64,000 nucleotides of DNA from an uncultured Fluviicola sp. (lineage in GTDB: Bacteria; Bacteroidota; Bacteroidia; Flavobacteriales_D; Crocinitomicaceae): NCBI RefSeq assembly GCF_902168135.1, contig NZ_CABHOL010000015.1, positions 434,001 through 498,000 on the forward strand, in the 5' to 3' direction. A program made the translations under genes and the position numbers. The stretch's first letter is position 1. Every line of letters begins with the position of its first letter. The notes under the pieces were generated by a model. That model was not told the DNA's origin, searched no databases, and saw only the letters and a program-made list of their open reading frames with translations. Below, one piece after another: positions 43,970 to 60,600 of this stretch.

Positions 43970-46693
43970 TTATTTAGCTGCTACAGAAGCGAATTGAAAT
44001 ACGTCTGCAAACAATTGTTTCAAGCGGCGCTCGTGTAATTTCTTAGAACCTTCTGCCGCAGCTGCTGATGCAGGTCTGGTAATTCCTTTAAACGGAATAT
44101 GTCTCAGGTTCATTGCAATGTATGTCCATGCTCCCATGTTAGCAGGTTCTTCCTGAGCCCACACGACATTTTTCGCATTGTATTTTGCAACGATCGCATC
44201 AATTTGTTTTTGCGGTAAGGGGTACAATTGTTCAATACGAACAAACGCCATATTGTCAACACCCATATCTGCAGCTTTCTCTTTTAGTTCGTAATAGAAT
44301 TTCCCGGAGCAGAAAACCAACGTATCCACCTGGCCAACTTTTCCGTTCGGATCATCAATTACTTCCTGGAAAGAACCGCTTGCCATTTCTTCCAGGGTGG
44401 AAGTCGCGGCAGGTAAACGCAGGATCATCTTCGGAGAGAAAACCACCAATGGTTTACGGAACGGACGAGCTAATTGTCGGCGAAGCAAATGGAAATGGTT
44501 TGCCGGCGTAGAGGTATTTACGACCTGGATATTTTCATCGGCGCATTGCTGCAACCAGCGTTCCATGCGGCCACTTGAGTGTTCAGCTCCCTGACCTTCG
44601 TATCCGTGAGGAAGAAGCATAACCAAACCACTTTGAGTAGACCATTTGTCTTCACCCGCAGTGATGAACTGGTCGATCATAATCTGTGCACCGTTGAAGA
44701 AATCCCCGAATTGCGCTTCCCAGATCGTTAATCCTTTCGGAGTAGCTAACGAATAACCGTACTCAAAACCAAGAACTGCGTATTCGGATAACAAAGAGTT
44801 GTAAACCGTAAACGGAGCCTGCTTGTCTGAAAGCATGTTCAGGGTTTCGATCTCTTCCTCGTTGTCTTCTGTTTTTACAACTGCATGACGGTGGGAGAAT
44901 GTTCCGCGCTCTACATCTTGTCCCGAAATACGAACAGGAATTCCTTCTTCCAAAAGCGTTGCATACGCAAGCATTTCTGCAGTTCCCCAATCCAGGTTGT
45001 TGTTTTCAATTGCCGCCAGACGGTCCTTGAAGATTTTCTGGATCTTGGTGAAATATTTTTTTCCTTCCGGAAGCGTTGCTAGTTTTTTTCCAAGCTCGTA
45101 TAATTTGTCCTTTTGAATACCGGTTTCAGGGCTTGAATCAAAATCTGCAAGAGTACTGTGGCGGAAACCTTCCCAGGTTTTGCTTAAGAAATCCCAAACG
45201 ACAGCTTTTTCATTCTTACGGGCTGTTTCGAACTCATTTTCCAAATATTCGCTGTACTCATCTTCGATTTTTTTCGCTTCCGATTCTGTTAAAATACCTT
45301 CCGCAATTAGCTGCTTTTGGTAAATCACCTTCGGGTTCGGATGTTTTTTTATAATATCGTACAAGTTCGGCTGCGTGAATTTAGGCTCATCACCTTCGTT
45401 ATGTCCGTATTTACGGTAGCACAACAAATCGATGAATACATCACGGTGGAATTTCTGACGATATTCCATGGCGATCTCAATGGTCTGGATCACCGCTTCA
45501 ATATCGTCTCCGTTTACGTGAAAAACGGGAGTTAATGTCGTTTTTGCTACGTCAGTACAATAAGTGGATGAACGTGCGTCGTGGAAGTTTGTTGTAAAAC
45601 CGACCTGGTTGTTTACCACAATGTGGATAGTTCCGCCGGCTCTGTATCCGTCAAGCAATGCCATCTGAATTACTTCATATACGATTCCCTGTCCTGCAAC
45701 TGCTGCATCACCGTGGATCATCACCGGACAAACTTTGTTTTCATCTTTGAAATGAGCATCCAGTTTTGCGCGTGCAATTCCCTGAACAACCGGGTCAACG
45801 GCTTCCAGGTGGGATGGGTTCGGAGCCAAGGTCAAACCAACTTCTTTTCCATCCTTTGTAGTTGTGGAACTGGTATATCCCTGGTGGTATTTTACGTCTC
45901 CGTCAAAAGCACCGTCAGCATCAAATTCTTTTCCTTCAAATTCGGAGAAGATGTCCTGAGGGCGTTTTTGGAAGATGTTCGTTAATGTGTTCAAACGTCC
46001 GCGGTGAGCCATTCCCATTACGAAATACTCCACTCCCAGGCTCGAACCTTTTTCAACCAAAGCATCCAATGCCGGAATTAATGATTCACCACCTTCAACG
46101 GAGAAACGTTTCTGACCTACATATTTTTTACCCAAAAAGGCTTCAAAATTGGAAGTCTGAACTAATTTTTTATAAATGTGTTTTTTACGCTCAGCATCAA
46201 AAACCGGGCGGTTTTTAACTTCGATGCTGTTTCTGAACCATTCCAAACGTTCCGGCTCACGCATAAACATGTACTCAATACCGATGGATTGACAATAACA
46301 CTGCTCCAGGTCCTGGATAATATCACGCAATGTTGCTGCTCCGATGCCGATTTGCTCCCCTGCCTGGAAAACAGTGTCCAAATCAGATGCATCCAATCCG
46401 AAATTTTCGATTGCCAACGTGGGTTCGTACTTTCTGCGCTCACGAACAGGATTGGTCTTCGTAAACAAATGTCCGCGGGTTCTGTACCCGTTGATCAGGT
46501 TTATTACTTTAAATTCTTTCTGAAAATTTTCAGGAATATCACCGCCGTCTTCGAAGTTCGTGCGGGCAAAATCAAATCCTTCAAAGAATTTTTGCCAGCT
46601 AAGATCCACGCTTTCAGGGTCTTTCAAATAGGACTGATATAAATGATCTATCGCATTTACATCTGCATTTCCGACGTACGTCACTTTATCCAT
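43970..46693 (-). CDS. odhA: 2-oxoglutarate dehydrogenase E1 component
   Basis: A 907-residue thiamine-diphosphate-dependent decarboxylase. The short N-terminal E2-binding segment (HLYQSYLKDPESVDLSWQKF) is present; MAHRGRLN and the region HGDAAVAGQGIVYE contain the cofactor and metal-binding residues; the C-terminal transketolase-like part has SGQDVERGTFSHRHAV and HGYEGQGAEHSS. Length is typical of Gram-negative SucA. A TAACTTTA box on the minus strand (46716-46723) may be its -7 element. Confidence 0.96.
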   Translation of the reverse strand: MDKVTYVGNADVNAIDHLYQSYLKDPESVDLSWQKFFEGFDFARTNFEDGGDIPENFQKEFKVINLINGYRTRGHLFTKTNPVRERRKYEPTLAIENFGLDASDLDTVFQAGEQIGIGAATLRDIIQDLEQCYCQSIGIEYMFMREPERLEWFRNSIEVKNRPVFDAERKKHIYKKLVQTSNFEAFLGKKYVGQKRFSVEGGESLIPALDALVEKGSSLGVEYFVMGMAHRGRLNTLTNIFQKRPQDIFSEFEGKEFDADGAFDGDVKYHQGYTSSTTTKDGKEVGLTLAPNPSHLEAVDPVVQGIARAKLDAHFKDENKVCPVMIHGDAAVAGQGIVYEVIQMALLDGYRAGGTIHIVVNNQVGFTTNFHDARSSTYCTDVAKTTLTPVFHVNGDDIEAVIQTIEIAMEYRQKFHRDVFIDLLCYRKYGHNEGDEPKFTQPNLYDIIKKHPNPKVIYQKQLIAEGILTESEAKKIEDEYSEYLENEFETARKNEKAVVWDFLSKTWEGFRHSTLADFDSSPETGIQKDKLYELGKKLATLPEGKKYFTKIQKIFKDRLAAIENNNLDWGTAEMLAYATLLEEGIPVRISGQDVERGTFSHRHAVVKTEDNEEEIETLNMLSDKQAPFTVYNSLLSEYAVLGFEYGYSLATPKGLTIWEAQFGDFFNGAQIMIDQFITAGEDKWSTQSGLVMLLPHGYEGQGAEHSSGRMERWLQQCADENIQVVNTSTPANHFHLLRRQLARPFRKPLVVFSPKMILRLPAATSTLEEMASGSFQEVIDDPNGKVGQVDTLVFCSGKFYYELKEKAADMGVDNMAFVRIEQLYPLPQKQIDAIVAKYNAKNVVWAQEEPANMGAWTYIAMNLRHIPFKGITRPASAAAAEGSKKLHERRLKQLFADVFQFASVAAK

Positions 46694-46850
46694 GTTGGTG
46701 CACTATAATGGTGGGTAAAGTTATAACTTTTAGTCCAAGCGCGAGTAGGAAATCACTATAAAAAAATGCAAAAATGGTATATATTGTTCGAAGGCTGAAA
46801 GATTGTTCGTTTATCACGGATTAAATCTCAATTCTGCCCCCGTTTTTCTT

Positions 46851-47195
46851 TTATTTAAACTGGATTTGGTAGAACACTTTCATCAATTCGCGGTGCAGAA
46901 TAGCATTGGAAAGATAAAAGAGCCGGTTTTCATGGTCATTGGTTTGTACCAGGATCAGTTCCGGGATGTCGATTAAATAGAGCAGGTGCTGCAATTCGCT
47001 TTCGCTGAGTTTTTGAAGCACGGTCCGGATTTCCTGGTTCCATGCTGCAGGATCGGCGCTCCTGAGCTCGAATTCACCTATTCCCGAACGCTGAAAGTCT
47101 TTTTGGATTTGGGCCTGCAGTTTTTCAAGCAGTTTGCGCTGGCTCAATCGCAATTGAAGTTTCCGGACGAGTGCGTTTAAATCTTTTTCTTCCAT
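46851..47195 (-). CDS. small cytosolic protein, unknown function
   Basis: A 114-residue mostly helical protein without signal peptide (KLQLRLSQRKLLEKLQAQIQKDF looks like a coiled coil; SELQHLLYLIDIPELIL is amphipathic). Not recognised. It is divergent from the HAD phosphatase gene, 37 bases between starts. Confidence 0.6.
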   Translation of the reverse strand: MEEKDLNALVRKLQLRLSQRKLLEKLQAQIQKDFQRSGIGEFELRSADPAAWNQEIRTVLQKLSESELQHLLYLIDIPELILVQTNDHENRLFYLSNAILHRELMKVFYQIQFK

Positions 47196-47220
47196 AATCC
47201 AGTCATTGATGTGAACTTGC

Positions 47221-47228
47221 TACCTTTG
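47221..47228 (+). promoter_or_regulatory. -7 box directly before the HAD gene
   Basis: TACCTTTG is an exact TAnnTTTG match; its last base is 5 bases before the ATG at 47233, predicting a leaderless transcript. No TTTG at the -33 distance. Confidence 0.55.
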
Positions 47229-47232
47229 CATC

Positions 47233-47862
47233 ATGATTAATAACTCAAAAGAAGCAATCATTTTTGATTTGGGAGGAGTTTTGTTGAATTTGGATTACGA
47301 TTTAACAGAAAAAGCCTTTATTTCTCTTGGAATGGCCAATTTTGGCGAGTCCTATTCCCAACTGCAGCAAGTAAACCTCTTTGATCGTTACGAAATCGGT
47401 GAAATTTCTTCTTTCCACTTTGTGAACCGCCTGCTGGATTTATTACCTCCCGGAACTACCGCAAACCAGGTGGTGCATGCCTGGGAAGCAATGATCCTTG
47501 ACTTTCCGGCAGAAAGGCTGCGGTTTTTGGAAGAGCTTTCCGGGAAATACCGTCTTTTTCTATTGAGTAACACCAATGATCTGCACATTGATGCCGTTAG
47601 AAGATCTTTGGAAAAAACGGTTGGACATAAAAACCTGGAGCAGTATTTTGAGAAAACATACTTCTCATCTGCTGTCGGGATGCGTAAACCGGATTCCAGA
47701 ATCTTTGAGTTTGTCTGTTCGGAGAATAATCTCGATCCGGCAAAGACCATTTTCATTGATGACAGTCCGCAACATATCGAAGGAGCAAAGTTAGCCGGAA
47801 TAGAGGCTTTTTTGTTGGAAAAAAACCAGGATGTTTTCGAACTGCCTTTTTTTCGTTCTTAA
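47233..47862 (+). CDS. HAD-superfamily phosphatase (YihX-like)
   Basis: A 209-residue cytosolic hydrolase. Motif I is IIFDLGGVLLNLD with nucleophile Asp12, in the D-L-G form of the YihX/epoxide-hydrolase-N branch; motif II is LFLLSNTND; motif III Lys is in VGMRKPDSRIF; motif IV is TIFIDDSPQHIEGA. A four-helix cap sits between motifs I and II. YihX-type enzymes dephosphorylate sugar phosphates such as glucose 1-phosphate; the substrate here is not known. Confidence 0.87.
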   Translation: MINNSKEAIIFDLGGVLLNLDYDLTEKAFISLGMANFGESYSQLQQVNLFDRYEIGEISSFHFVNRLLDLLPPGTTANQVVHAWEAMILDFPAERLRFLEELSGKYRLFLLSNTNDLHIDAVRRSLEKTVGHKNLEQYFEKTYFSSAVGMRKPDSRIFEFVCSENNLDPAKTIFIDDSPQHIEGAKLAGIEAFLLEKNQDVFELPFFRS

Positions 47863-47887
47863 TCTAAACCAGAAGAGTTTTATCTCC

Positions 47888-48286
47888 TTACTTTTCCTGG
47901 CAAAGCTCCACCAATACTCCGTTGGAAGATTTCGGATGCAGAAATGCTACTAATTTGTTATCTGCTCCATTCTTCGGCTGTTCATTTAATAATTGAAATC
48001 CTTTCGACGCCAGATTATTCATGGATTGCTTGATATCTGTTACATCGAAGGCAATGTGATGGATTCCTTCGCCTTTCTTTTCGATGAATTTAGCGATGGG
48101 ACTGTTTTCATTACTTGCTTCCAGCAATTCGATCTTTGATTCTCCCACCCGGAAGAAAGCGGTTTTCACACCTTCGCTTTCTACTGCTTCGGTCTTATAA
48201 CATTCGGTACCAAGAAGCTCGGTGTATGTCTTGATTGCTTCGTCGAGGTTTTTGACAGCAATTCCAATGTGTTCGATTTTATTCAT
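47888..48286 (-). CDS. mce: methylmalonyl-CoA epimerase
   Basis: A 132-residue cytosolic enzyme of the vicinal-oxygen-chelate fold that interconverts (R)- and (S)-methylmalonyl-CoA in propionate metabolism. Metal-binding residues are visible in IEHIGIAV (His6), EGIHHIAFDV and GVLVELCQE; KTAFFRVGESKIELLE is a family block. No mutase is adjacent. A TATCTTCG box on the minus strand (48292-48299) ends six bases before the ATG, so the leader is probably very short. Confidence 0.93.
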   Translation of the reverse strand: MNKIEHIGIAVKNLDEAIKTYTELLGTECYKTEAVESEGVKTAFFRVGESKIELLEASNENSPIAKFIEKKGEGIHHIAFDVTDIKQSMNNLASKGFQLLNEQPKNGADNKLVAFLHPKSSNGVLVELCQEK

Positions 48287-48312
48287 GGATTCGAAGATAA
48301 GAAAAGTATCAA

Positions 48313-48342
48313 AGTTGTCACGCGATTAATCGCGTGACAACT
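48313..48342. repeat. palindromic repeat, copy 1 (core CGCGATTAATCGCG)
   Basis: A 30-base perfect palindrome: outer arms AGTTGT/ACAACT around the core CACGCGATTAATCGCGTG. It lies upstream of mce. The same core occurs at 55995-56034, and a variant at 54488-54514. Confidence 0.85.
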
Positions 48343-48348
48343 GATTAT

Positions 48349-48381
48349 AAAACAAAAACCCCGACATTTATCGTCGGGGTT
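48349..48381 (-). terminator. hairpin terminator (loop shared with 37902-37926)
   Basis: AACCCCGAC (48357-48365) pairs perfectly with GTCGGGGTT (48373-48381), loop ATTTATC. On the minus strand it is followed by TTTGTTTT, so it ends the gene at 48403-49209. Confidence 0.85.
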
Positions 48382-48402
48382 CAATATGATTTTCAAAGGT
48401 TT

Positions 48403-49209
48403 TTATCCCTTAAAGAATTTCTCTGTTTTGTTGTCGAAGTTGATGTAATAAGCTCCTTTCAATAGGTTTGAACATGGAACTGAAGAACCGATTCCTTTTT
48501 TGACGATGTTCCCGTAGGCGTCGTAGATCTCATACTTTGTTTCGATCGGTTTTCCGGAAGCTGTAAAGTTGATTTGATCTTTAACCTTGACCGGATTCTT
48601 GACAACCACTGGTACCGAAGAAGTAAACTTCACGTCTTTGGAATTTCTTTTAGCTCCTGAGTGGTCGATTTGAACCACACGAACCGTGTTTTCTCCTGAA
48701 TGAGGTGCAACGAGGAATTCGTAGCTGTTTGTTCCCGGTGTGCCTTTTCCCTGAACTTCCCCGATCTTCACCCATTTGTTCCAGCGGTACTGTTCAATAA
48801 TAAATGGAAGTTTTCCTTGTTCGTTAGTGGTTTTCCAGGTAAGCATTCCGTTGTTCTGAATCTGGATGTCAACGGTATTAAAAGTACTTCTTGGAAGTAA
48901 TACTTCCGGATTTAAGATTTTTGGTTTGCATCCATCGTTATGTTCTATAACTATAAATACAGGTTCACCTATTTCTATATTGAAAAGAGAAAAGTCAATT
49001 TCGAATGCCGATATGGCTGTTCCACCAGGAAGGATGTCACCGTTTACTGTAACCTTTGTCGCACAAAAACCAAAACCGTCACCGTCTTCCGGATTTTGAA
49101 CGTAAAGATTTTTACCCTGATAACTTCCTTCAATGGAAAGAACCGCTGAGCTTGAAAAGCTTAGCAGTAACGCAAAAGAGCAAAGTAAGATTAATTTTAA
49201 TTGTTTCAT
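48403..49209 (-). CDS. exported protein with T9SS-like C-terminal tail
   Basis: A 268-residue protein with signal peptide MKQLKLILLCSFALLLSFSS(SA); unlike most exports here it is not cleaved before Gln. The N-terminal half (YQGKNLYVQNPEDGDGFGFC, VTVNGDILPGGTAISAFEID) looks like a beta-sandwich often found in Bacteroidota surface proteins; a fibronectin-like segment follows. The C-terminal 75 residues (KYEIYDAYGNIVKKGIGSS..LKGAYYINFDNKTEKFFKG) follow the T9SS sorting-domain pattern. Function unknown. A terminator follows. Confidence 0.7.
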   Translation of the reverse strand: MKQLKLILLCSFALLLSFSSSAVLSIEGSYQGKNLYVQNPEDGDGFGFCATKVTVNGDILPGGTAISAFEIDFSLFNIEIGEPVFIVIEHNDGCKPKILNPEVLLPRSTFNTVDIQIQNNGMLTWKTTNEQGKLPFIIEQYRWNKWVKIGEVQGKGTPGTNSYEFLVAPHSGENTVRVVQIDHSGAKRNSKDVKFTSSVPVVVKNPVKVKDQINFTASGKPIETKYEIYDAYGNIVKKGIGSSVPCSNLLKGAYYINFDNKTEKFFKG

Positions 49210-49462
49210 TTTTATCTAGTAGCTACACTAAAAACTGTGGCAAGTATAATAGCTATTTTTTACATTACCAACATTTTACATTACGAAATTACAATTTTTT
49301 TTCTTTTCAACCACCCGAAAAGTTAATTTATCATGAAATATTGACCGTTCGTCGATTATATGGCCCAAAAACTTAATATTTGGTATATGGACATTTTGTT
49401 TTTTTAAGTTATTTTAGTAAAAGATTTTTTCTATTCTTGTATTGATAAATCCTTCATCTACT

Positions 49463-51181
49463 ATGAAATTAGTTCCTGTAGTTTTACTTATTCTTATTCT
49501 TACATCATGCGGTTCAGATAAAAAACAATTTGAGTTTGCAGGAGGAAGTTTTAAAATGGCTTTGGATAATACGCCATCGACATTTATTGCCAGGGAAGTA
49601 AATGATGTTTACTCTTTTGAATTGCTTTCACAGGTCATGGAAGGATTGGTAAGTTTCAATGCGGAAGATCTTTCCCTGCAGCCGCAAATCGCCGAAAAAT
49701 GGAGTATTAATGGAGATGGAACTGTTTTTACCTTCACCATTCGGGATGATGTATTCTTTCACGACAACCCGGTTTTCGGATCCATGGATGACAGAAAGCT
49801 GACTGTTGATGATGTCCTGTTCACTTTTGAAAAAGCCTGTAAGCCGAATGCGGAAGGAAATCCAACAGCCGCGTATTTGTTCCTGCTTTCCAACCAGGTC
49901 AAAGGAGCGAAGGAATTCTACGAGGGAAAAGCAAAATCCATCAGTGGAATAAAAGTCAAGAAGAACCAGTTCGAAATCACTTTATTGAATCCGGACCAAA
50001 CATACATCAATAAATTGGCTAACCTGAGTGCGAGCATTGTTTCGAGAAAAATCGTTGAAGCGAATAAGGAAACAGATGTGGTAGGAACCGGACCGTTTTG
50101 TTTTACCAAGCCTTCTGAGGATGAAACGTATATTCTGTTAAAGAACCGGGATTATTACATGGTTGATAACAAAGGAAATGCACTTCCATACCTGGATTCG
50201 GTAGTTTTCTATGTTCAGACCAGGAAACTGGAGCAACTGGAAATGTTCGAACAGGGAAAGACTTCACTGATTTCCGGATTACCTACTTCGCGAATTACGG
50301 AAATGCTGGAAGGACGAATTTCAGATTTTAATGCACAGCCTCCATTGAAGGAGTTGTACAATAATCCTTTATTAACTACTCAGTACTATTTCTTCAATAT
50401 GAATGATCCGCGTTTTAAGGATGTTCGCGTAAGACAGGCATTCAACTATGCAATTGACCGCAAACGTCTGGCAGATAATGTATTGCGAAATCAATATTAC
50501 GAATATGGGATTTATGGAATTACTCCGCCAATCGGTTCTGTGTTCAAGGGATACAATTTTTCAGAAATCAAAAAGTACGGTTATGATTACAATCCTGAAA
50601 TGGCTAAAAAACTATTGGCCGAAGCAGGTTACCCGGATGGGAAAGGATTTGGAAGTGTGGACCTGAGATTGGATATTAGTGATTTGAATACGGCTGTTGC
50701 GGAAGAATTGGCCGACCAGATCTACCAGACTTTGGGAATTAATGTAAACATTGACGGTTCAAATTTCGAGCAGCGAAATGAAGACGGAAACATGGGAAGG
50801 GGAGATATGTTCCGCACAGCATGGGTAGCAGACTATTCAAGTCCGGAAACGTTCCTGGGGAATTTTTACGGAAAAATCGTCCCGAAATCCAAAGACGAAC
50901 CATCCAGCGGAAACCAATCCCGTTACGTGAATCCATTGTTCGATAAGTATTTTGAGCAAGGCCGTTCGGCAGATACGAAGAAAAGACTGGAATTGTTCTC
51001 CAAAGCCGAAATTGAGTTGATGAAAGATCCTCCGATCATTCCGCTTTGGTATGCCAACGATTTCACACTCAGCTATTCGCGTGTACGCAACCTGAAGAAT
51101 AATCCGATGGAATTTTTGGACCTGCGCCGGGTATATATCAAAGAGTGGACGAAAGAAGAATATTTGAAGTCTATTCAATAA
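49463..51181 (+). CDS. family 5 peptide/nickel-type substrate-binding lipoprotein
   Basis: A 572-residue lipoprotein. ATG at 49463 gives signal peptide and lipobox ILTSC; the TTG at 49442 is not needed. The SBP_bac_5 pattern is clear: LLSQVMEGLVSFN, IAEKWSINGDGTVFTFTIRDDVFFHD near 80-105, VRQAFNYAIDRKRLADNV near 320 and an ending with RRVYIKEWTKEEY. These proteins bind oligopeptides or metal complexes for ABC importers. No permease or ATPase genes are adjacent; instead a TonB-dependent receptor begins 31 bases downstream, suggesting a shared substrate. Confidence 0.88.
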   Translation: MKLVPVVLLILILTSCGSDKKQFEFAGGSFKMALDNTPSTFIAREVNDVYSFELLSQVMEGLVSFNAEDLSLQPQIAEKWSINGDGTVFTFTIRDDVFFHDNPVFGSMDDRKLTVDDVLFTFEKACKPNAEGNPTAAYLFLLSNQVKGAKEFYEGKAKSISGIKVKKNQFEITLLNPDQTYINKLANLSASIVSRKIVEANKETDVVGTGPFCFTKPSEDETYILLKNRDYYMVDNKGNALPYLDSVVFYVQTRKLEQLEMFEQGKTSLISGLPTSRITEMLEGRISDFNAQPPLKELYNNPLLTTQYYFFNMNDPRFKDVRVRQAFNYAIDRKRLADNVLRNQYYEYGIYGITPPIGSVFKGYNFSEIKKYGYDYNPEMAKKLLAEAGYPDGKGFGSVDLRLDISDLNTAVAEELADQIYQTLGINVNIDGSNFEQRNEDGNMGRGDMFRTAWVADYSSPETFLGNFYGKIVPKSKDEPSSGNQSRYVNPLFDKYFEQGRSADTKKRLELFSKAEIELMKDPPIIPLWYANDFTLSYSRVRNLKNNPMEFLDLRRVYIKEWTKEEYLKSIQ

Positions 51182-51212
51182 GTGTATATTTACGGGTTGA
51201 TATAACCAAAGA

Positions 51213-53660
51213 ATGAAAACTATCCTTACCGTATTGTTTTGTGCGTTCGTATCCGTATTGATCGCACAGCCTACCCAAACTGTTCGTGGTACTGTTTTGG
51301 ACTCGGAATCGGATTTCCCGGTTTTTGGAGCACAGGTCATCATCAGTCTTTCCGATAGTTCGAAATTGAAAACAATGACCAACAATGATGGTGTTTTCGA
51401 ATTCCTGAATGTTCCGGTGGGAAAATATCTTTTAGCCGTTAAATCTACGATCTATGAAAATTACTCGGCATCCGTGGAAGTCAATTCAGGGAGGCAGACT
51501 GTTTTGGAGATCAAGGTCAAAGAACGGATAAGTGAAGTAGAAGAAGTGGTTGTTGTAGCACAGAAACAGGGAGAAGTCAAAAATGAAATGGCTACTGTTT
51601 CGGCGCAACAGTTTTCGGTAGAAGAAACAGAACGGTATGCCGGATCACGTGGAGATCCCGCTCGTATGGCCAGCAATTTTGCGGGTGTCCAGGGTGCGGA
51701 TGATTCCCGCAATGATATTGTGGTTCGTGGAAATTCTCCGCTTGGAGTGGTGTACAAAGTCGAAGGAATAGATATTCCGAACCCCTCCCATTTCTCCGTT
51801 TCCGGAAGTTCGGGCGGACCGGTTTCTATCATCAACAACAAAAGCTTAGCGAATTCGGATTTCTTTATGTCGGCTTTCCCGGCTGAATATGGAAACTCTA
51901 TTTCGGGAATTTTCGATTTGAAATTGCGAAACGGGAACTCCAAACAACATGAGTTTACAGGTCAGTTCGGTTTCCTTGGAACGGAAGTATTGGCAGAGGG
52001 TCCGCTGAGCAAAAAAACGAATGCGAGTTACCTGATCATGGGCCGTTATTCGACATTGAGCTTGTTCCAGTTTATGGGAATCCGCATCGGGACGGATGCT
52101 GTTCCGGTTTATGGTGACGGTGCCTTTAAATTCAATTTCCCGCTTAAAAAAGGTGGACAGCTTTCGCTTTGGGGAATCGGCGGGAAAAGTGATATCAAGA
52201 TCCTGGTTTCCGAACAAACAGAGTATACGAAAGAATTATACGGAGAGGGTGACCGCGATCAGTATTTCGGGACGGGAATGGCTGTTGCCGGCTTGACTTA
52301 TAAGAAATCGCTTTCCGAAAGAACCTTCCTGACAACTACTTTTTCAGGAAGTATTGAAGATCAGCATTCACACCACGATTTGCTGAACCGTTCTTTGGAT
52401 ACGACCCATAATGGTGGTGAACCGGAAGTCAAAATTTCCGTTGACAGTATTTACCCCATCATGGGATATGATTTCAAGATCGCTAAGTATTCCGGAATGT
52501 TCAGCATCAACCACAAGATCGGGAAACAGCACATTATCAAAGTAGGATTGAATGCCGATTTCTTAACCTTCAAAATGATAGACAGTGTTTTGAATACCTT
52601 GGGAACAGGATTCATCAACCGCTGGGATTACAAAGGTCAGGGTGGTGTTTTGGTACAGCCTTTCTTCCAGTGGAAATACCGCATCACGGAAAACATGGAT
52701 TTCACAGCCGGACTCCATGCGCAGTATTATTCATTCAGCAATTCTTTGAGCCCTGTTGAACCGCGTTTAGGTTGGAAATGGTCCATGAAAGGAAATCAGA
52801 AATTGTTCGCAGGTGCAGGACTTCACAGCCAAACTCAGCCATATTATATCTATACCTACCATTTAAAGGATGCCTCCGGAAATAAGATTTACCACAATAA
52901 GAATATGGGGTTCACCCGATCAATGCATTCGGCGTTGGGTTACGAGAAGAATTTCAAAAAAGGGTTCCAGTTCAAGACGGAAATCTATTACCAGTACTTG
53001 TTTGAAGTTCCGGTTACCGTTCAACCGTCTTCTTTCTCCATGATCAACCAGGGAAGCGGATTTGCCCGTTTCTTCCCGGATACTTTGAAAAATACCGGAA
53101 CGGGTATGAACTATGGATTGGAGTTGACCCTGCAAAAGTTCTTCGACAAGAGTTTTTATGTGCTGACAACCGTTTCCATCTACGACAGTAAATACAAAGG
53201 AAGTGACGGTATTGAACGAAATACCAGCTACAACGGATTGTATACGGCAAACGTGTTGTTCGGGAAGGAATTCAAATTGGGGAAAAAGCACACGCTTGGT
53301 TTGGGCGGGAAAGTAACAGTAGCAGGTGGAAAACGCTATGGTTATATCAATCTTCCGGCTACAACAGCTCAAAAAGAATTGATCTTCAGTGATTCCGCTT
53401 TCAATACGCGTCAGTTCAAGGATTATTTCCGGGCAGATTTAAAGATCAGCTGGAAAATGAACGCGAAGAAAGTAACCCATGAAATCGGTTTGGATTTGGT
53501 GAATATCCTGAACACACGAAATATCCTTGGTTTGGCTTACGCGCCTGACCTGGCAGATCCGAGCAAAGAGCCGTTGGCTGAGAAGACGCAATTGGGATTC
53601 CTGCCGATTTTCTATTACCGGATCAGTTTTAAGCTGGCAAGTGGGAAAAGGATGGAATAA
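51213..53660 (+). CDS. TonB-dependent outer-membrane receptor
   Basis: An 815-residue receptor; signal peptide ends LIA before Gln. Residues about 25-110 are the carboxypeptidase-regulatory-like beta-sandwich typical of Bacteroidota receptors (VRGTVLDSESDFPVFGAQV). The plug domain follows (EVEEVVVVAQKQGE, NDIVVRGNSPLGVVYKVEGIDI), then a 22-strand barrel ending FYYRISFKLASGKRME. No SusD partner is adjacent, so it is not a glycan-utilisation SusCD pair. Probably co-transcribed with the upstream binding lipoprotein; substrate unknown. Confidence 0.9.
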   Translation: MKTILTVLFCAFVSVLIAQPTQTVRGTVLDSESDFPVFGAQVIISLSDSSKLKTMTNNDGVFEFLNVPVGKYLLAVKSTIYENYSASVEVNSGRQTVLEIKVKERISEVEEVVVVAQKQGEVKNEMATVSAQQFSVEETERYAGSRGDPARMASNFAGVQGADDSRNDIVVRGNSPLGVVYKVEGIDIPNPSHFSVSGSSGGPVSIINNKSLANSDFFMSAFPAEYGNSISGIFDLKLRNGNSKQHEFTGQFGFLGTEVLAEGPLSKKTNASYLIMGRYSTLSLFQFMGIRIGTDAVPVYGDGAFKFNFPLKKGGQLSLWGIGGKSDIKILVSEQTEYTKELYGEGDRDQYFGTGMAVAGLTYKKSLSERTFLTTTFSGSIEDQHSHHDLLNRSLDTTHNGGEPEVKISVDSIYPIMGYDFKIAKYSGMFSINHKIGKQHIIKVGLNADFLTFKMIDSVLNTLGTGFINRWDYKGQGGVLVQPFFQWKYRITENMDFTAGLHAQYYSFSNSLSPVEPRLGWKWSMKGNQKLFAGAGLHSQTQPYYIYTYHLKDASGNKIYHNKNMGFTRSMHSALGYEKNFKKGFQFKTEIYYQYLFEVPVTVQPSSFSMINQGSGFARFFPDTLKNTGTGMNYGLELTLQKFFDKSFYVLTTVSIYDSKYKGSDGIERNTSYNGLYTANVLFGKEFKLGKKHTLGLGGKVTVAGGKRYGYINLPATTAQKELIFSDSAFNTRQFKDYFRADLKISWKMNAKKVTHEIGLDLVNILNTRNILGLAYAPDLADPSKEPLAEKTQLGFLPIFYYRISFKLASGKRME

Positions 53661-53756
53661 TTCAAAATGATGAATTAAAAATTCAAAAGTTTTAGTACTT
53701 TAATGTGATATGCGCCTCTGACAATGATTAGGATGCGGTAGGCTTTTGAGATCAAC

Positions 53757-54491
53757 ATGAGAAACAGCTGGATATACGGATTACTCGTTTTTGTATTGAT
53801 TTTTTCCTGCAACAGCCCCAAAAGGCAAAGGAAGATCAACGACGGAAAGCTCTTTGAGAAACTCAAAGAACAGAAAGGCTATCTGAATGCCGAAGAACTA
53901 AAGCGACTGGAGCGCGATTTCTCACTCAAATTGTTGAATAAGTACGATCTTTCCGGTTATGACGAAGCAGATACTTTAGCATCGTTTTTAAGAGTTGGTA
54001 CGGATGTTTGGATAGCAAGCTGCTATTTGGAGAATGCTGTGGAAACGCATTACCCGTTTTTCCGCATGACCGAAACCAGGGAAAAAGGATTCAGAATGGT
54101 TAGTCATGGATTAATTCCGATAGCGAATGGAGAATGTGGGTATGAATTGAACAAATTGCTGATTCGGTCGGGAGACTACATTTTTCTTTCCCGAATAATT
54201 ACTGAAGGCAGGAATTGTATTAATTCACCGGTGGTGTTTAGCTTGAATGGAAAAATGGTTGACAGAGGTCTTGATTTCGCTGTTGCTGTATGGAAAAGCT
54301 CTAACCGGGAAAATAATCCTGTTCGATGCGATTTTACCATAGAGTCTAAATCCCCGCAAAATATTGTGATGCACGTTCATGAAAGAGTCCGGGATACCGA
54401 AATGGATGAGGAAATCGGTTCGCGGAAGTATGATCTTCGTTTTGAGGTGAAAAACAACACGATTTATTTCAGAGATACGGTTTATAAGTAG
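53757..54491 (+). CDS. lipoprotein, unknown function
   Basis: A 244-residue predicted lipoprotein with lipobox LIFSC (Cys18). No domain recognised; the body mixes an N-terminal helical region (KLFEKLKEQKGYLNAEELKR) with a beta-rich remainder. Its TAG stop (54489-54491) lies inside the palindromic repeat copy 2, whose other arm supplies the stop of the convergent CHAP gene. Confidence 0.6.
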   Translation: MRNSWIYGLLVFVLIFSCNSPKRQRKINDGKLFEKLKEQKGYLNAEELKRLERDFSLKLLNKYDLSGYDEADTLASFLRVGTDVWIASCYLENAVETHYPFFRMTETREKGFRMVSHGLIPIANGECGYELNKLLIRSGDYIFLSRIITEGRNCINSPVVFSLNGKMVDRGLDFAVAVWKSSNRENNPVRCDFTIESKSPQNIVMHVHERVRDTEMDEEIGSRKYDLRFEVKNNTIYFRDTVYK

Positions 54492-54514
54492 GTACGTGAT
54501 TAATCGCGTCCTAC
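54488..54514. repeat. palindromic repeat, copy 2, containing both stop codons
   Basis: An imperfect palindrome GTAGG.TACG.TGATTAATCGCG.TCCTAC, related to copies at 48313 and 55995. The left arm holds TAG, the stop of the plus-strand gene (54489-54491), and the right arm holds CTA, the stop of the minus-strand gene (54511-54513). The hairpin can also act as a bidirectional terminator. Confidence 0.75.
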
Positions 54515-55104
54515 CTCATACGCAACCACCCCAAAATTCGCGAGTGGTCAATTTCCCACAATCCATCTGCTTGTTCGAGGTCGAACACATCCCTGGGATG
54601 ATCCGGATTCCCGGCATTTTGTTGGATGATCTCCACTTCGTCGTCTGTGACGTTGGAAACAATCACCACATGCCCGTATTCATTCGTTAAGGTGGCATCC
54701 ATGATGATCAGATCACCGACCTGTGGCTTGCTCTTACTCGGATTGGTATATTGGATCAGGCCGCGATCTTTGTTTAATGCTCCGTCTTTCAGTCCCCTGT
54801 CAAAGAAGTCAATGGCATTTCCGTAAGCATTCGGCATTTTGTGCTTGTAATACTCGTAGTAGTACCTTTTGACAAACTCTACGCATTGATACTTCAGACC
54901 GATGTTATATCCGTCGGGAGAAGTGTTCCTTCCGCTGACATTTCCCATTCCGCCGTTGTAGTATACGATTACGTGGTTGAGACTGTCGAGTCGGTCACCG
55001 ATTTTATAATTATGCGGGGAATAACCTGCATTTCTTTGGTAAAGGAAAATGACCAGCGCACTCGTGGCTGCAATAGCGAGTAATAGGAAGAGGGCTTTTT
55101 TCAT
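54511..55104 (-). CDS. CHAP-domain amidase-like protein
   Basis: A 197-residue protein with an N-terminal membrane anchor (about 4-22). The CHAP (cysteine-histidine amidohydrolase/peptidase) fold is indicated by the Cys in YQCVEFVKRYYYEYY near 75 and the His in YGHVVIVSN about 90 residues later, plus the PQVGDLIIMDA segment. CHAP enzymes cut peptidoglycan peptides or glutathionylspermidine-type amides. Translationally coupled to the upstream DUF1990 gene by a four-base overlap. Confidence 0.8.
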   Translation of the reverse strand: MKKALFLLLAIAATSALVIFLYQRNAGYSPHNYKIGDRLDSLNHVIVYYNGGMGNVSGRNTSPDGYNIGLKYQCVEFVKRYYYEYYKHKMPNAYGNAIDFFDRGLKDGALNKDRGLIQYTNPSKSKPQVGDLIIMDATLTNEYGHVVIVSNVTDDEVEIIQQNAGNPDHPRDVFDLEQADGLWEIDHSRILGWLRMR

Positions 55105-55682
55105 GTGTGAGGAAGTTGAAGTTCGATGCTCTTTTTAACGTGTTTCAGAGCCTTTTTAGTGCAGTAAGTTTGGTAGGGAATGGAGAAAACGGGTCCTAGC
55201 ATCCGGGTGAGGAGATTTCCAGGTTTGGAGAAAGTTTGGATTCTGAAAAAGATCTTTCCGGCCGTTTCTTCCATTATGAAATACGAAATCCCGCATTCCA
55301 CGTGCCCTTTTAGTGTTTCGTAACTAAAGCCCAAACGGTTTTCTTCCCGGATAACTTCCTTGATCCGAACTCCGAATAGTGCTTTTTGAGAAAATTTCGG
55401 GATAGGAGGAAGGTAAACCTGCTGCAAAATGGTGTCGCCGGCCTGGATGCTTCTTTGTTCGTCGCGCCATTGCGGGTATCCGGACAAAATGTTTTCAGGG
55501 AAAATCCGGTAATCGAAGAAAAATGCTAGATTCAGCTGGTTTAAATGCGAGACACCCGAGATCTTGATAGAACTGATTTTTTCAATCAGAGCGCTTCGTT
55601 CATAAGCTATAACAGGAACTTGTTTCAGTTCTTCCAAGTACTTTTTGAAACGATTTTTCTGGTTGAATAAAGCGATTTTCAT
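55101..55682 (-). CDS. DUF1990 family protein
   Basis: A 193-residue soluble protein. The block AGDTILQQVYLPP followed by FGVRIKEVIREENRLGFSYETLKGHVECGISYF matches the DUF1990 pattern. Function of the family is not established. It overlaps the downstream CHAP gene by four bases, so both are made from one mRNA. Confidence 0.8.
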   Translation of the reverse strand: MKIALFNQKNRFKKYLEELKQVPVIAYERSALIEKISSIKISGVSHLNQLNLAFFFDYRIFPENILSGYPQWRDEQRSIQAGDTILQQVYLPPIPKFSQKALFGVRIKEVIREENRLGFSYETLKGHVECGISYFIMEETAGKIFFRIQTFSKPGNLLTRMLGPVFSIPYQTYCTKKALKHVKKSIELQLPHT

Positions 55683-55769
55683 GGAAAGGGATATTTTATG
55701 TAATCATTGCTTCAAATATACTATTCTGAATAATTTTTTAGTCATGAAAAATTTTTCATCACTACTCTG

Positions 55770-55777
55770 TAACTTTG
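55770..55777 (+). promoter_or_regulatory. -7 box directly before ywbE
   Basis: TAACTTTG matches TAnnTTTG and ends 5 bases before the ATG at 55782, predicting a leaderless mRNA. A small palindrome (ATGAAAAATTTTTCAT) lies just upstream at 55744-55759. Confidence 0.55.
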
Positions 55778-55781
55778 AATC

Positions 55782-55985
55782 ATGAAACCATTGAGAAAAG
55801 ACATCAAACCGGGTATGCTGGTATTATTTGTTCAGAAGAAACACCAGGCAAGTGGTGAGCTGACGGAAGGAATTGTGAAATCAATCCTTACAAGCGCGCC
55901 TTCCCATCCACATGGGATCAAAATCATGACGGTGGATAAACTCGTTGGTCGTGTGACCGAAATCCTGGAGAGTGACGTGGATTGA
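55782..55985 (+). CDS. ywbE: YwbE family small protein
   Basis: A 67-residue soluble protein matching YwbE (DUF2196): R-x-D-I-K-P-G-M-L-V at the N-terminus, then LTEGIVKSILTSAPSHPHGIKIM and GRVTEIL. A small beta-barrel, possibly nucleic-acid binding; the function is not known. Single gene with a promoter next to its ATG; palindromic repeat copy 3 starts ten bases after the stop. Confidence 0.88.
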   Translation: MKPLRKDIKPGMLVLFVQKKHQASGELTEGIVKSILTSAPSHPHGIKIMTVDKLVGRVTEILESDVD

Positions 55986-55994
55986 ACTTTTATA

Positions 55995-56034
55995 AAACAC
56001 GTAGGCACGCGATTAATCGCGTGCCTACGTGTTT
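55995..56034. repeat. palindromic repeat, copy 3 (40-bp perfect palindrome)
   Basis: A 40-base perfect palindrome: core CGCGATTAATCGCG at the centre (56014/56015), flanked by AAACACGTAGGCA and its complement. It lies between the convergent ywbE and aldehyde dehydrogenase genes and would form a 20-bp hairpin in either transcript. Shares core with copies at 48313 and 54488. Confidence 0.9.
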
Positions 56035-56052
56035 ATTGATATTGAATTTATT

Positions 56053-57609
56053 TTACAAATCAAATTTGATTCCCTGTGCCAATGGCAATGAATCCGTGTA
56101 ATTGATCGTGTTTGTCTGACGACGCATGTATACTTTCCATGCATCGGATCCTGACTCACGTCCGCCACCGGTTTCTTTTTCACCACCAAAAGCTCCGCCG
56201 ATCTCAGCACCTGAAGTACCGATGTTTACGTTTGCAATTCCACAGTCAGATCCTGCTTGTGACAAGAAAGCTTCTGCTTCTTTCAGGTTGTTGGTCATAA
56301 TTGCCGAAGACAATCCTTGCGGAACTCCGTTTTGAAGTGCGATTGCGTTCTCAACACCACCCGAATACTTCATTAAGTACAATACCGGTGCGAATGTTTC
56401 GTGCTGAACGATCTTGAATGTATTTTGAGCTTCTGCGATTGCAGGTTTTACATAGCATCCGCTTTCGTATCCTTCTCCTGAAAGAACACCGCCTTCAACC
56501 AATACTTTTCCACCTTCTTCAACAACTTGTACCAATGCATTCTGGTAAGCAGCTACAGCATCTTTATCGATAAGCGGCCCCACGTGGTTGTTTTGGTCCA
56601 AAGGATTCCCGATTTTCAATTGCTTGTATGCATTTACCAACGCATCTCTTACTTTATCGTAAACAGATTCGTGGATGATCAAACGGCGTGTAGAAGTACA
56701 ACGTTGTCCTGCTGTTCCTACTGCACCGAATACAGCTCCCGGAACTACAATTTTCAAATCAGCACTTTCTGTAATGATTACCGCGTTGTTTCCGCCCAAT
56801 TCCAATAAGTGACGTCCCAAACGTTTTCCAACTGCTTCACCAACCGCTTTACCCATACGAGTAGAACCGGTTGCGGAAACCAATGGAATGCGTGTATCGT
56901 TTGACATCAGTTTTCCCAGTTCGGCATCACCGATCAATAAACAGGAAACTCCTTCCGGAACTCCGTTTGCTTCGAAAACTTCCTGAGTCAATTTTTGACA
57001 AGCGATTGCTGTCAAAGGTGTTTTTTCGGATGGTTTCCAGATACAAACGTCACCACAAACCCAAGCCAGGGCCGTGTTCCAATTCCAAACCGCTACCGGG
57101 AAATTAAATGCAGAAATAATCCCTACAATCCCAAGCGGGTGGTACTGCTCGTACATTCTGTGTCCCGGACGCTCAGAGTGCATAGTTAGACCATATAATT
57201 GACGGGAAAGACCTACTGCGAAATCACAGATATCGATCATTTCCTGAACTTCTCCTAAACCTTCCTGTAATGATTTCCCCATTTCGTAAGAAACCAATTC
57301 ACCCAGAGCTTGTTTCTTTTCACGGATTTTTTCTGCCAATTGGCGAATCACTTCTCCGCGTTTTGGAGCAGGGATCATTCTCCAGTATTTGAATGCTTCC
57401 TGGGCTTTCAAAACAACTGCTTCGTATTCTGCTTCTGTTGCAGAAGAAACCGATGCGATCACCTGTCCGTCAACCGGTGAAATTGAATCGATCTGAGCTC
57501 CACGTGTGTTAAACCAATATCCTCCTGTGGAAGCTCCGCGGTTTACCGCTTCAATTCCCAATGTTTTTAATGTTTCTTGTATTCCAAGATCTGTTGCTGT
57601 TGCTGACAT
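56053..57609 (-). CDS. ALDH7-type aldehyde dehydrogenase (aminoadipate-semialdehyde dehydrogenase-like)
   Basis: A 518-residue NAD-dependent enzyme. ATG 57609-57607 is chosen because a -7 box lies just upstream; an in-frame ATG at 57642 would overlap that promoter. The active-site Glu is in LLELGGNNAVI and the nucleophile Cys in GTAGQRCTSTRR; GSDAWKVYMRRQTNTINY near the end is characteristic of the antiquitin/ALDH7 branch, which oxidises alpha-aminoadipate semialdehyde to 2-aminoadipate in lysine degradation. A saccharopine dehydrogenase gene is about 17 kb away. The downstream palindromic hairpin probably terminates it. Confidence 0.9.
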   Translation of the reverse strand: MSATATDLGIQETLKTLGIEAVNRGASTGGYWFNTRGAQIDSISPVDGQVIASVSSATEAEYEAVVLKAQEAFKYWRMIPAPKRGEVIRQLAEKIREKKQALGELVSYEMGKSLQEGLGEVQEMIDICDFAVGLSRQLYGLTMHSERPGHRMYEQYHPLGIVGIISAFNFPVAVWNWNTALAWVCGDVCIWKPSEKTPLTAIACQKLTQEVFEANGVPEGVSCLLIGDAELGKLMSNDTRIPLVSATGSTRMGKAVGEAVGKRLGRHLLELGGNNAVIITESADLKIVVPGAVFGAVGTAGQRCTSTRRLIIHESVYDKVRDALVNAYKQLKIGNPLDQNNHVGPLIDKDAVAAYQNALVQVVEEGGKVLVEGGVLSGEGYESGCYVKPAIAEAQNTFKIVQHETFAPVLYLMKYSGGVENAIALQNGVPQGLSSAIMTNNLKEAEAFLSQAGSDCGIANVNIGTSGAEIGGAFGGEKETGGGRESGSDAWKVYMRRQTNTINYTDSLPLAQGIKFDL

Positions 57610-57629
57610 TCCTTTTCGATTAGTTTGTG

Positions 57630-57637
57630 CAAAATTA
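57630..57637 (-). promoter_or_regulatory. -7 box of the aldehyde dehydrogenase promoter
   Basis: On the minus strand the sequence reads TAATTTTG, a match to TAnnTTTG, about 20 bases before the ATG at 57609. Confidence 0.5.
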
Positions 57638-57689
57638 CACAATTTTACGGACTAATAGTTTGTAACTTATGTTAAGCTTTCGCTCCGGG

Positions 57690-60600
57690 TCAATCTTTTA
57701 GAATGGAGATCGGCGCGATGGAAATACCTGAGTTCAGTTTCCCTGTCAGCAGGTAATATCCGCGGGCAAGATCTTCGATGTAAATACGCACAAAATGCGT
57801 GTTCTCAGTATGTTGAGTCAATACAACCTTTCCATTCAGATCAGTTAGCTGCAGATCGATTTCTGCGTAATCAGCTGATAGATCAACCATTAAATAATCC
57901 CTGCCCGGATTCGGGTAAACAGTGATCTCCAATTCGTTTTCTTCCAGTGAAAGATTGGAGCAGGCATCAACCAGAATCTGATCTGTGAACGCACATCCGC
58001 TCATATCTTCTCCGTTGATATATACGGTAAAATATCCATTGGTAGTAATGGCATTTGCCGGAATGTATAAAGGATTGTTTGTGTATTGGTTTGAGAAGAT
58101 TGTCCACTCAATATTTTGGAAAGAGTTGGTGTCGACATACAACTGCAGTGGATAACCGCAAATCAAATCCATGTTAGCCGGAAGATTTGGAGTTACCGGT
58201 GCTTCTGTTAGTTTAAGTACTTCAAATTCCTGTGTGCCGAAACATCCCTGGAAATCCTGGGTTGTCAGATAAACGGTTACCGGGATATTCAGTGTTAACC
58301 CGGAGGTAGAAACATAGAATGACTGACCGCTGGTAATGCTGCCGTTGAAATTCCATTCGTAATTGGTGATGCCCGGGTCTGATAAATATACACTTAGGCC
58401 AGGCTGGCATTCCAGCGTATACAACGAATCAATATCCGGATAATACATTTGTTTGATAACGTAATTAAAGGAATCGATCAATGTGTTCTGAGGATTAAAC
58501 AGTTCCAGTGTGAACCCGTTGTTTGGATTTGGTGCCGACCCGATGATGAGGTTATTCTCTATTGGGAAATACCCGGAATTTGAAACTCCGTTGGCGTGAA
58601 TCGTGTAAGCTATGGAATCCATTTGGGAAGCATAGTTCAAATAGAATGAATTATCTGAATTACAGATTTCAAAAGTATCCTGCTGCGTCAAACAGTTATT
58701 GGTCGACATTTTTAGTACGAAACTACTGTCTATAGGAACTACTTCTCCGTTAAAAGGAAGCAGAATCGTATCTGAAAGATTAAAGTTTTTTACAGATACA
58801 TAGATGTTGTTGCTATTTGCGTTTACAACAGGATATAAATAATTGACAGATAATCCCAGGTTAGTTCCTTTTACCAGAGAACAAGTAGTATCAAGAGTTG
58901 CAATTCCCAGACCGTATGCGTGTGACGAAACTGCGTTTTTCAGGGATTGAAAGTTATTGGTTCGTTTTAGCTTTAAACCATCATAACTAATGCCCGATAA
59001 CAGGAACTGATCATCTTTCCAATATTCGATCTTTCCACTGAGAAGGTTGGTTTCCGTGAGAGATAGCAGATTAAACTCATCATCCGTTTTCACAAGGAAG
59101 CTTTTAAAAGGTCCGTTCCCCAAATAGATTATACTATCCATAATTTCAAGTTCCTGGTTTCCATAAGTGAATTCACTCACCAAAAAGTAGCAGTTGTTTT
59201 GAGTGTCAAGAGCGATTGAATGGATAAGTGGAACATTTCCAACAGTAGTGGTAGCCAAAACTTTTTGATTGGAGAACCCACTGGAAAGTGAAAGTTTAGC
59301 TCCGACAAGCATCGTTCCGAGATAAGGGTAAGGTCCTGCCGTAAAGCCGTTAATTTCAATGCTATAGTTCATGGTACGGGCTGCATAGATGAAATTGTCG
59401 TGGTCTATTTTCTTCAAAAAGAAATGATCGTTATTACCCGAAAGACCCTGGATATAGGTAGGGAATGACTGTATCAGACTGAAGGAAAGATTCGGTGTAT
59501 ATTGGATTGCGTAAACATGAACGCCTAATCTATTGGTGAATAGTAAGCGGGAATCATCGACAATAATTTCACTAATCTCCAGGTTGTTAGATGTAGGAGG
59601 ACCGCCAAGCTGATTTCCATAGCTGTCAAAAACATAGATTGCTGCAAAAGTATTGGTTAATCGTGCGAAATAAGTATTTCCCAAACTGTCTATTGCTCCT
59701 GCTGTAAAGCGGTTAGATGCATTCTGTGTCCAATCCTCAAGAGCTTTCTGCCAGAGAATGGTCCCGTATGAACTGATTTTCCGGATAATTGCTGTGGAAT
59801 ACAACCCGTATTGCGCATACCCATACTCATAAAGGTTGTCGTCTTCATCCACCATAGAACCAACGACAGTCATTTTTTGGAATTCTTTATCGAAACAGTA
59901 AACAAGGGATGTATCGTTTGCAACAGGGTCCAGGAAAGTATGTGTTTTTGTAATAGTATCCGAACAGCCATAACTGCTTTCGTTGATCAGGGTAATTTGT
60001 TCCTCACCGGATTGATAGGATCCCATGATCGGGACGGTGTCGCTTAGCTGGTTCATAAAACCGTTACTGATGGTACCTGACCATGTTTGAGCAGCATTAA
60101 TCTGATCATTGAAAATTTCTACGGTGTCGTTAATCTGCGTCCCGAATGTATGGTGGAACATGGCGTGCGGATTCTGAACGGTAAAGCTGGCCAATTCAAA
60201 AGTTTGCGAAGGACAACCGTTGTAAACAATCTCTATGGCAATTTTGTTGATGTATTCCGGATGTGTGTACTGGAAAATCGTACCGAATTGACCCGCGTAA
60301 ATTTCAGCTCCATAGTCCGGGTAGAACACGCTGTTATTGGGCAATTGGAAAGTAGAAGTGCCAACCGTGGAAACAGTAGGCGGATTAAGGGTCGTGGTTG
60401 TTGGGAAAGCCGACCCCGGAATGTAATTGTTATTCTTTATGGTATAGTTTATTCCGGGTAGGTTGGATACCACCTGGAATTGAATACTGTCGGCGGGAAA
60501 ACAATAGGTTGGTTGGGAGCTTGTAACACTGAATGCACCGGACGTCTGCGGGTAAACGAATACCGGGTGAGGATACACAGAAACCAGGGTGTCACCACAA

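Follow-up and report, generated by a model that had tools for sequence, protein, structure and literature searches.

The closest described relatives of the element treated here are repetitive extragenic palindromes (REPs) linked to REP-associated tyrosine transposases (RAYTs). In the consulted sections of Quentin et al. (2018, PMC6006769), TnpAREP subclass 2.4, which is RAYT group 4, has double-foot REPs of the form GT[AG]G...C[TC]AC and is abundant in Bacteroidetes and Cyanobacteria; its REPs flank the RAYT gene and also lie inside it with the frame kept, generally between the HUH and Tyr motifs. The GTAG REPs, as presented in the consulted sections of Di Nocera et al. (2013, PMC3733652), are 20-40-bp palindromes near the 3' ends of convergent or unidirectional open reading frames (ORFs), with a GTAG tag at one end, outside the base pairing, whose TAG may act as a stop codon, and with subfamilies that show complementary stem changes. 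The same sections place GTAG repeats in Proteobacteria, Cyanobacteria, Chloroflexi and the Planctomycetes-Verrucomicrobia-Chlamydiae group, and CGTC repeats in Bacteroidetes. Here we describe a family of palindromes noticed as three copies in a 64,000-nucleotide stretch of an uncultured Fluviicola sp. (contig NZ_CABHOL010000015.1, here C15:434001-498000; "the window"). These palindromes are very probably double-foot REPs, about 60 in number, that were spread in trans by a RAYT, are orphaned in this genome and are kept as hairpins at 3' ends of genes.

In their features they agree with the double-foot REPs that belong to subclass 2.4 RAYTs. As in that subclass, going by the portion of PMC6006769 consulted, the window family begins with GT[AG]G and ends with C[TC]AC, a REP-flanked RAYT is present in three relatives (G007, G012 and G022; none was found in the window's genome), and the REP lies in frame between the HUH and Tyr motifs in RAYTs of relatives and of records from other phyla. 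It departs from the systems described there in that no RAYT of that group was found in the host genome, and the family's particular loop and arms, with their sharing among about ten phyla, were not found in the same portion of the paper. With the GTAG super-family, as far as the consulted sections of PMC3733652 describe it, the palindromes share their length and dispersal (here 28 bp and 59 copies), their convergent or unidirectional settings near 3' ends, complementary changes in the stem, and the use of the foot TAG as a stop codon (in three copies here); they differ in that the GTRG foot pairs with CYAC, so that the defining unpaired tag is absent. Bidirectional intrinsic terminators resemble them in having a stable hairpin, a T-rich tail on both strands and convergent genes as neighbours, but not in the stem and loop sequence conserved throughout the family, nor in the linkage to RAYT genes.

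Copy 1 (48313..48342) is a 30-bp perfect palindrome whose 28-bp unit (48314-48341) is GTTGTCACGCGATTAATCGCGTGACAAC, copy 3 (55995..56034) is a 40-bp perfect palindrome with the unit GTAGGCACGCGATTAATCGCGTGCCTAC at 56001-56028, and copy 2 (54488..54514) is imperfect, one arm being, by our reading, one base short; no strand is assigned to any of them. The sequence bears out the earlier note on this DNA, which had described two perfect copies and one imperfect copy at these positions. Allowing up to two mismatches, the window has three occurrences of the core where 0.12 are expected, and none of 100 shuffles reached three. The folded plus-strand RNA has an energy of -21.9 kcal/mol (z -6.3) for copy 1 and of -32.9 kcal/mol (z -8.3) for copy 3; overall, z against shuffles ranges from -6.3 to -10.2 for the two perfect copies and is -3.4 and -3.9 for the imperfect one.

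In the whole genome of 4,379,353 bases (G000), ACGCGATTAATCGCGT was found with at most two mismatches at 53 places and the 10-base core CGATTAATCG at 61, the reversed control giving none in either case. Around these places 65 candidate sites were read (about five of the 61 core sites are not among them), and the 59 with a consensus score of at least 18 of 24 were kept; the six that scored lower and were dropped are C9:86763, C15:518300, C21:278475, C22:43468, C36:8938 and C48:5873. The unit is 28 bp long, GTRGGNNCGCGATTAATCGCGNNCCYAC, with the pattern GTRGGNN-CGCGA-TTAA-TCGCG-NNCCYAC, that is, a 12-bp stem and a TTAA tetraloop, the stem having GT[AG]G as one terminus and the complementary bases as the opposite one. 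The inner core CGCGATTAATCGCG is nearly fixed across copies. Counted from the centre, positions 1-14 are paired in 93-100% of copies, positions 15-19 in 58-71%, and background is reached from position 20; the four foot positions (11-14) pair with the opposite end in 93-95%. A REPIN consists of two inverted REPs separated by a short distance, and no REPIN-like pairing is seen here, the nearest two of the 59 copies being 536 bp apart (C48:70832 and C48:71368).

The arms vary in a compensated manner. Covariation was calculated on 58 of the 59 copies (38 distinct), window copy 2 being left out for its missing base. Paired cells make up 95.8%, changes on both sides are seen in 9 of the 12 pairs, and covariation scores 0.451, where shuffled copies score 0.149, with none of 500 shuffles as high and at most 0.123 when the partner is slid by one to three columns. 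The compensatory arm changes that the earlier note had read from three copies accordingly extend to the whole family, as well as to orthologous sites (see below), and the dozens of genomic copies with compensating arms that it had asked for as support are there. Its REP-type interpretation is supported by copy number, arms and position alike, with the refinement that the GTRG foot is paired rather than an unpaired tag.

Four neighbouring copies at C15:507-518 kb (L018 12431, 15983 and 18503; L019 2560) have a longer arm, TAATAACCC, not seen in the other listed copies. Seven copies, the three of the window included, lie within about 36 kb (Poisson 8e-7, for a region chosen post hoc). We read both observations as local copying or conversion.

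The copies lie behind genes. Of the 59, 37 are in a tandem setting and 20 in a convergent one; a further copy lies within an ORF, another at a contig edge and none between divergent genes; thus 0 of 57 classified copies are divergent, compared with 21% of random intergenic positions in the same stretches. The gene calls behind these counts are ORF-based and miss short genes, so that copy 3 is tallied as tandem (a 67-aa ORF was overlooked), and one of the dropped sites, C48:5873, is the sole divergent one among the 65 candidates. A stop codon lies no more than 40 nt upstream in 50 of 58 copies (median 18.5), which holds for 45% of those random intergenic control positions that are themselves 3' of a stop. 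The position at gene ends noted beforehand holds genome-wide. In three copies, including window copy 2, an open frame of more than 200 codons meets its first in-frame stop at the foot TAG. On each strand, the 12 nt beyond the stem contain about 5.8 T, where the control has 3.95.

The family was followed through 99 genomes, namely the window's own and 98 relatives, 14 of the 99 being Fluviicola (G000 included). Exact cores are present in 15 of the 99, and range from 0 to 40 per genome across the 14 Fluviicola, with 40 in G007, 28 in G002, 21 in G012 and none in G003 and G006. At the site of copy 1, the palindrome has other arms in G002, where they match fully, and in G007 and G012, where the match is imperfect, and it is absent in G001, G003, G008 and G013. 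The site of copy 3 is unchanged in G002, has other, largely matching arms in G008, G001 and G012, and holds an unrelated hairpin in G003 and a different palindrome, GAAGGGACGCCATGCGTGGCGTCCCTTC, in G013 (L126).

A closer comparison is possible with G002, a relative about 95% alike, for which 20 of the 28 exact-core copies were fetched; the DNA compared was picked around the copies of G002 itself and is thereby biased towards shared sites. In this DNA the flanks of 11 of the 59 G000 copies were located, and a copy is present at eight of these sites and absent at three, namely window copy 2, C48:21884 and C22:41483, the last of which has GTAGGGACGCGATGCTTCGCGTCCCTAC instead. In the other direction, eight of the 20 G002 copies are shared with G000, three fall at located sites without a copy (one of them carrying GTAGGGACGCGAAGCATCGCGTCCCTAC instead) and nine were not located. 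At two sites in G000 or G002 the core is swapped for the loops AGCA or TGCT, and whole-loop differences between the two genomes are seen at C22:41483 and at the L259/L040 site. Paired double changes distinguish G000 from G002 at copy 1 (GTTGTCACG vs GTGGTCACG), at C41:16093 (GTAGTTG vs GTAGTGG) and in the outer pair of C17:130339, and C43:3864 shows a single change. Close relatives thus differ through turnover of copies, and one slot may hold different loops.

It is worth adding that G002 has a second double-foot family (on C5, C52, C66, C78 and others), whose arms, GTAGGGACGCGA, are mostly constant and whose tetraloops vary greatly (AGCA, TGCT, GGCA, CGCA and ACAC). The window family is the reverse of this, with a constant loop and variable arms.

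The 28-mer pattern also occurs far outside Fluviicola. It was found in at least 96 stretches of named genomes, 80 of which provide the titles given here, against a chance expectation of about 0.004 places (46 bits in 257 billion bases, by our own arithmetic). Among the matches listed, the record titles span about ten phyla: the Bacteroidota sources are Fluviicola, Aequorivita and others, and the remaining sources include WOR-1, Fibrimonadaceae/Chitinispirillales, Torokbacteria, Gracilibacteria, Uhrbacteria, Chloroflexi, Deltaproteobacteria, Nitrospirae, Spirochaetes, Caldithrix and an isolate, Nodosilinea nodulosa, which we take to be a cyanobacterium. Some listed records are titled only "bacterium" or "proteobacterium", and since many are contigs of metagenome-assembled genomes, single phylum labels may be wrong.

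A RAYT-like gene is present in four of the 80 listed stretches (WOR-1, Caldithrix, Torokbacteria and F. chungangensis), each time at the palindrome. In the first three the palindrome sits in frame within the gene, with the HUH part on one side of it and the Tyr part on the other. The RAYT of G012 and F. chungangensis has copies before its start and at its stop, the latter split by another hairpin; G007, the genome with 40 exact cores, has an intact RAYT (L237 1495-2010) between two copies; and in G022 the palindrome both flanks and interrupts the gene. It is found inside a RAYT gene in G010, G009 and G025 as well, the G025 frame having a stop. Among the 53 RAYT rows read, which represent 52 genes (L248 and L298 being the same G002 gene), the core lies inside the gene in L132, L138, L151, L231, L242, L255 and L283, all stop-free except L255. 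The RAYT of L242 (1480-2274, in G010) also has a long ASN/NAS repeat run in the variable region beside its in-frame REP.

The linkage can be expressed statistically. An alignment of the RAYT sub-group finds matches in 41 of the 99 genomes and 12 of the 14 Fluviicola (34 of 50 candidates scored), including the RAYTs of G012 and G002 that Pfam Y1_Tnp alone misses; in G001 the RAYT is reduced to a 92-residue rear part. A match is present in 14 of 15 core-bearing genomes (in G001 the fragment only) against 27 of 84 core-less ones (p 1e-5), and outside Fluviicola in four of four against 25 of 81 (p 0.012). The core is within the gene or no more than 200 bp away in seven of nine rows with the motif RW[YF]KGR and in three of the other 44 (p 2.5e-5); without three loci that had been found through the palindrome, the figures are four of six and three of 44 (p 0.002). 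In a tree built from 29 RAYTs after removal of their middle part, those of G007, G010, WOR-1, Caldithrix and Torokbacteria group together at 96/98, and in a tree of 46 they do so at 86/97, now with one core-less RAYT of G009 (the motif filter skipped 4 of 33 and 7 of 53 loci, respectively). Other Fluviicola RAYTs have other double-foot palindromes beside or inside them, such as GTGGGGACGCGATGCATCGCGTCCCCAC in G005 and GTAGGGGCGAAAAATTTTTCGCCCCTAC in G012. Three palindrome-linked RAYTs score 57-62 bits with the NCBIfam profile REP_Tyr_transpos, under its cut-off of 80.

The window's own genome has two Y1_Tnp matches in a whole-genome profile search, one at C15:505 kb and one on C36. The nearer (C15:505210-505422) is about 7 kb past the window end at C15:498000, in agreement with the earlier statement that the window itself has no RAYT. 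As a partner of the window family this RAYT (L018 9944-10495) was rejected, as its own, unlike hairpin, CCAAGCTAGCGCGAGTC-TCT-GACTCGTGCTAGCTTGG, adjoins it. Its protein exceeds the REP_Tyr_transpos cut-off, and by eye it was placed with L080 and L096, that is, in another group; two similar hairpins flank L096 (G032). The C36 gene (L020 8675-9274) is not supported as a partner either, its presence not tracking REP copy number: the type occurs in nine of 14 Fluviicola genomes including G000 (counting a broken copy in G007 and omitting a short fragment in G002), among them G003 and G006, which have no exact core, whereas G012 lacks it and has 21 cores. The C36 gene carries a palindrome of its own, AAGGGGATTAATCCCCTT, within the reading frame; it encodes the KGINPLD stretch of the group and has the centre GATTAATC of the window family, with different arms. 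In G007 the palindrome of this group (L082 1476-1501) is a perfect one of 26 bp. Possibly, the C36 genes represent another group of RAYTs in which a REP has been taken into the reading frame.

A further Y1_Tnp domain of the C36 kind (L106, G026:C18:35387-35890) lies within one frame with what appears, on our own reading rather than by a database match, to be a DNA methylase or restriction-like protein. The domain is just ahead of an NPPY motif (FPEIFKEK...FKGGFDVIIGNPPYV) in a frame open for more than 1,100 codons. A literature search gave no report of a Y1_Tnp-methylase fusion that was to the point by title.

The search for a RAYT that the earlier note had recommended thus succeeded in the relatives, where RAYTs are linked to the palindrome, and failed in the window's genome as regards the matching group. 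There, the first RAYT-group alignment (34 of 50 candidates scored) gave no match, and a second, built on RAYTs without an in-frame core (27 of 27 candidates scored), gave only the C36 gene, at 9e-5. The G000 match to the G002 RAYT locus stops about 100 bases before the RAYT start.

A family of this copy number, with compensated stems, sited behind stop codons, turning over among relatives and physically tied to RAYT genes, both among relatives and in other-phyla records, calls for a mechanism of spread and one of retention. We propose that a RAYT, a transposase of the HUH/Y1 type, would recognise, in single-stranded DNA, the hairpin together with its GTRG foot, and would copy or move the REP in trans. 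This proposal is made from the linkage and co-occurrence, by analogy with work on TnpAREP in the consulted part of PMC8266576. On this model the cognate RAYT would cut the single-stranded REP at its foot. The pair of REP and RAYT would have arrived by horizontal transfer, and in the window's genome the RAYT would have been lost, or never present, leaving an orphan family. Copies would persist mainly where a hairpin with T tails on both strands is tolerated or useful, as a bidirectional terminator or 3'-end protector, a role suggested by place, hairpin and T tails. The stem would be kept by selection on the hairpin, by template-switch repair that restores palindromes, or by both.

Several results weigh against parts of this account. 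The failure to find a RAYT of the matching group in the window's genome bears on present-day mobility there. G008 and G012 have 20-21 copies and no RW[YF]KGR RAYT among the loci read, and G003 and G006 have RAYTs yet no exact core. On the 46-RAYT tree the core label is only moderately clustered (6 changes, against 8.5 when shuffled, with 10 of 500 shuffles as low). Between G000 and G002 no clean empty site was seen, the copy-less sites also differing in their surroundings, and some orthologous arms pair imperfectly (G007 and G012 at copy 1, G008 at copy 3). With respect to termination, the T tail of the 37 tandem copies lacks the sense-strand bias (higher on the sense strand in 17, lower in 18) that would be expected if each copy were tuned as the terminator of the preceding gene. 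A terminator scan of 46000-58000 returned copy 3 on the plus strand and neither copy 1 nor copy 2, and its total of terminator-like hairpins was not above shuffles (15 vs 11.7, sd 3.2).

It is quite improbable that the copies are simply ordinary bidirectional intrinsic terminators, made alike by convergent selection with no mobile element involved. Their place just 3' of stops and their T-rich tails on both strands are what such terminators would have, copy 3 itself scores as terminator-like, and the copy-3 site is occupied by an unrelated hairpin in G003 and by a different palindrome in G013. Against this, the 28 bp that the copies have in common, GTRG ends and a nearly fixed TTAA loop included, go far beyond what a terminator needs, the 28-mer is met again in other-phyla records and within RAYT genes, and copy 1 is not listed by the scan, a separate terminator-like hairpin adjoining it. 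The nearly fixed inner core could also suggest a site at which a nucleoid or regulatory protein binds the duplex, but arms that co-vary in the fashion of a hairpin, the AGCA or TGCT loops that replace the core at two sites, and the avoidance of divergent intergenic regions make this extremely improbable.

A narrower alternative accepts that the elements are REP-like and concerns one step only, so that it is compatible with spread by a RAYT. The paired arm changes would come mainly from template-switch (quasi-palindrome) repair or gene conversion, rather than from selection on the hairpin. The double changes between G000 and G002 described above, the whole-loop differences and the extended arm common to the four neighbours at C15:507-518 kb all speak for such a process; single, uncompensated and G-T states (as at C43:3864) exist too, as stepwise compensation predicts, and we regard template switching or gene conversion as the main source of the changes as possible, if on balance unlikely. 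Double-foot REPs spread by a RAYT and kept as 3'-end hairpins are the reading we retain.

The surroundings of the window copies agree with this position at gene ends. Copy 1 is flanked by two minus-strand genes, and the ordinary terminator-like hairpin that adjoins it lies at 48356..48382 on the minus strand, according to the terminator scan. As had been noted earlier, the other two copies lie between convergent genes. Copy 2 is between a 244-aa ORF (53757..54491, plus strand), which has no NCBIfam or Pfam match at E 0.01, and a gene at 54511..55104 on the minus strand; the stop of the ORF is within the palindrome, the GTAG of copy 2 supplying its TAG. Copy 3 is between the 67-aa ORF (55782..55985, plus strand), which ends 9 nt upstream of it, and a minus-strand gene at 56053..57642.

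No report of this REP family in Fluviicola was found in the open-licence literature, as searched by title or abstract start, and the core sequence was not found in the text of any open-licence paper. With this analysis, a well-defined family of double-foot REPs, for which a partner RAYT motif can be named, is placed in Fluviicola. More tentatively, and at rather less than even likelihood, the RW[YF]KGR RAYT sub-group and its GATTAATC double-foot REP may have travelled between phyla as a pair, the REPs serving as exchangeable bidirectional terminator cassettes that outlive the loss of the transposase. If this is true, the occupant of one slot at the 3' end of a gene would vary with the species, being this REP in some, a REP with another loop in others and an ordinary terminator in still others, and the paired travel of RAYT sub-group and REP would reach into candidate phyla. 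The family bears on two open questions, the way in which RAYTs spread REPs and a possible function of REPs as terminators; since there are sister species that have the RAYT and others that lack it, and copy numbers vary among them, both become testable by comparison and in vitro.

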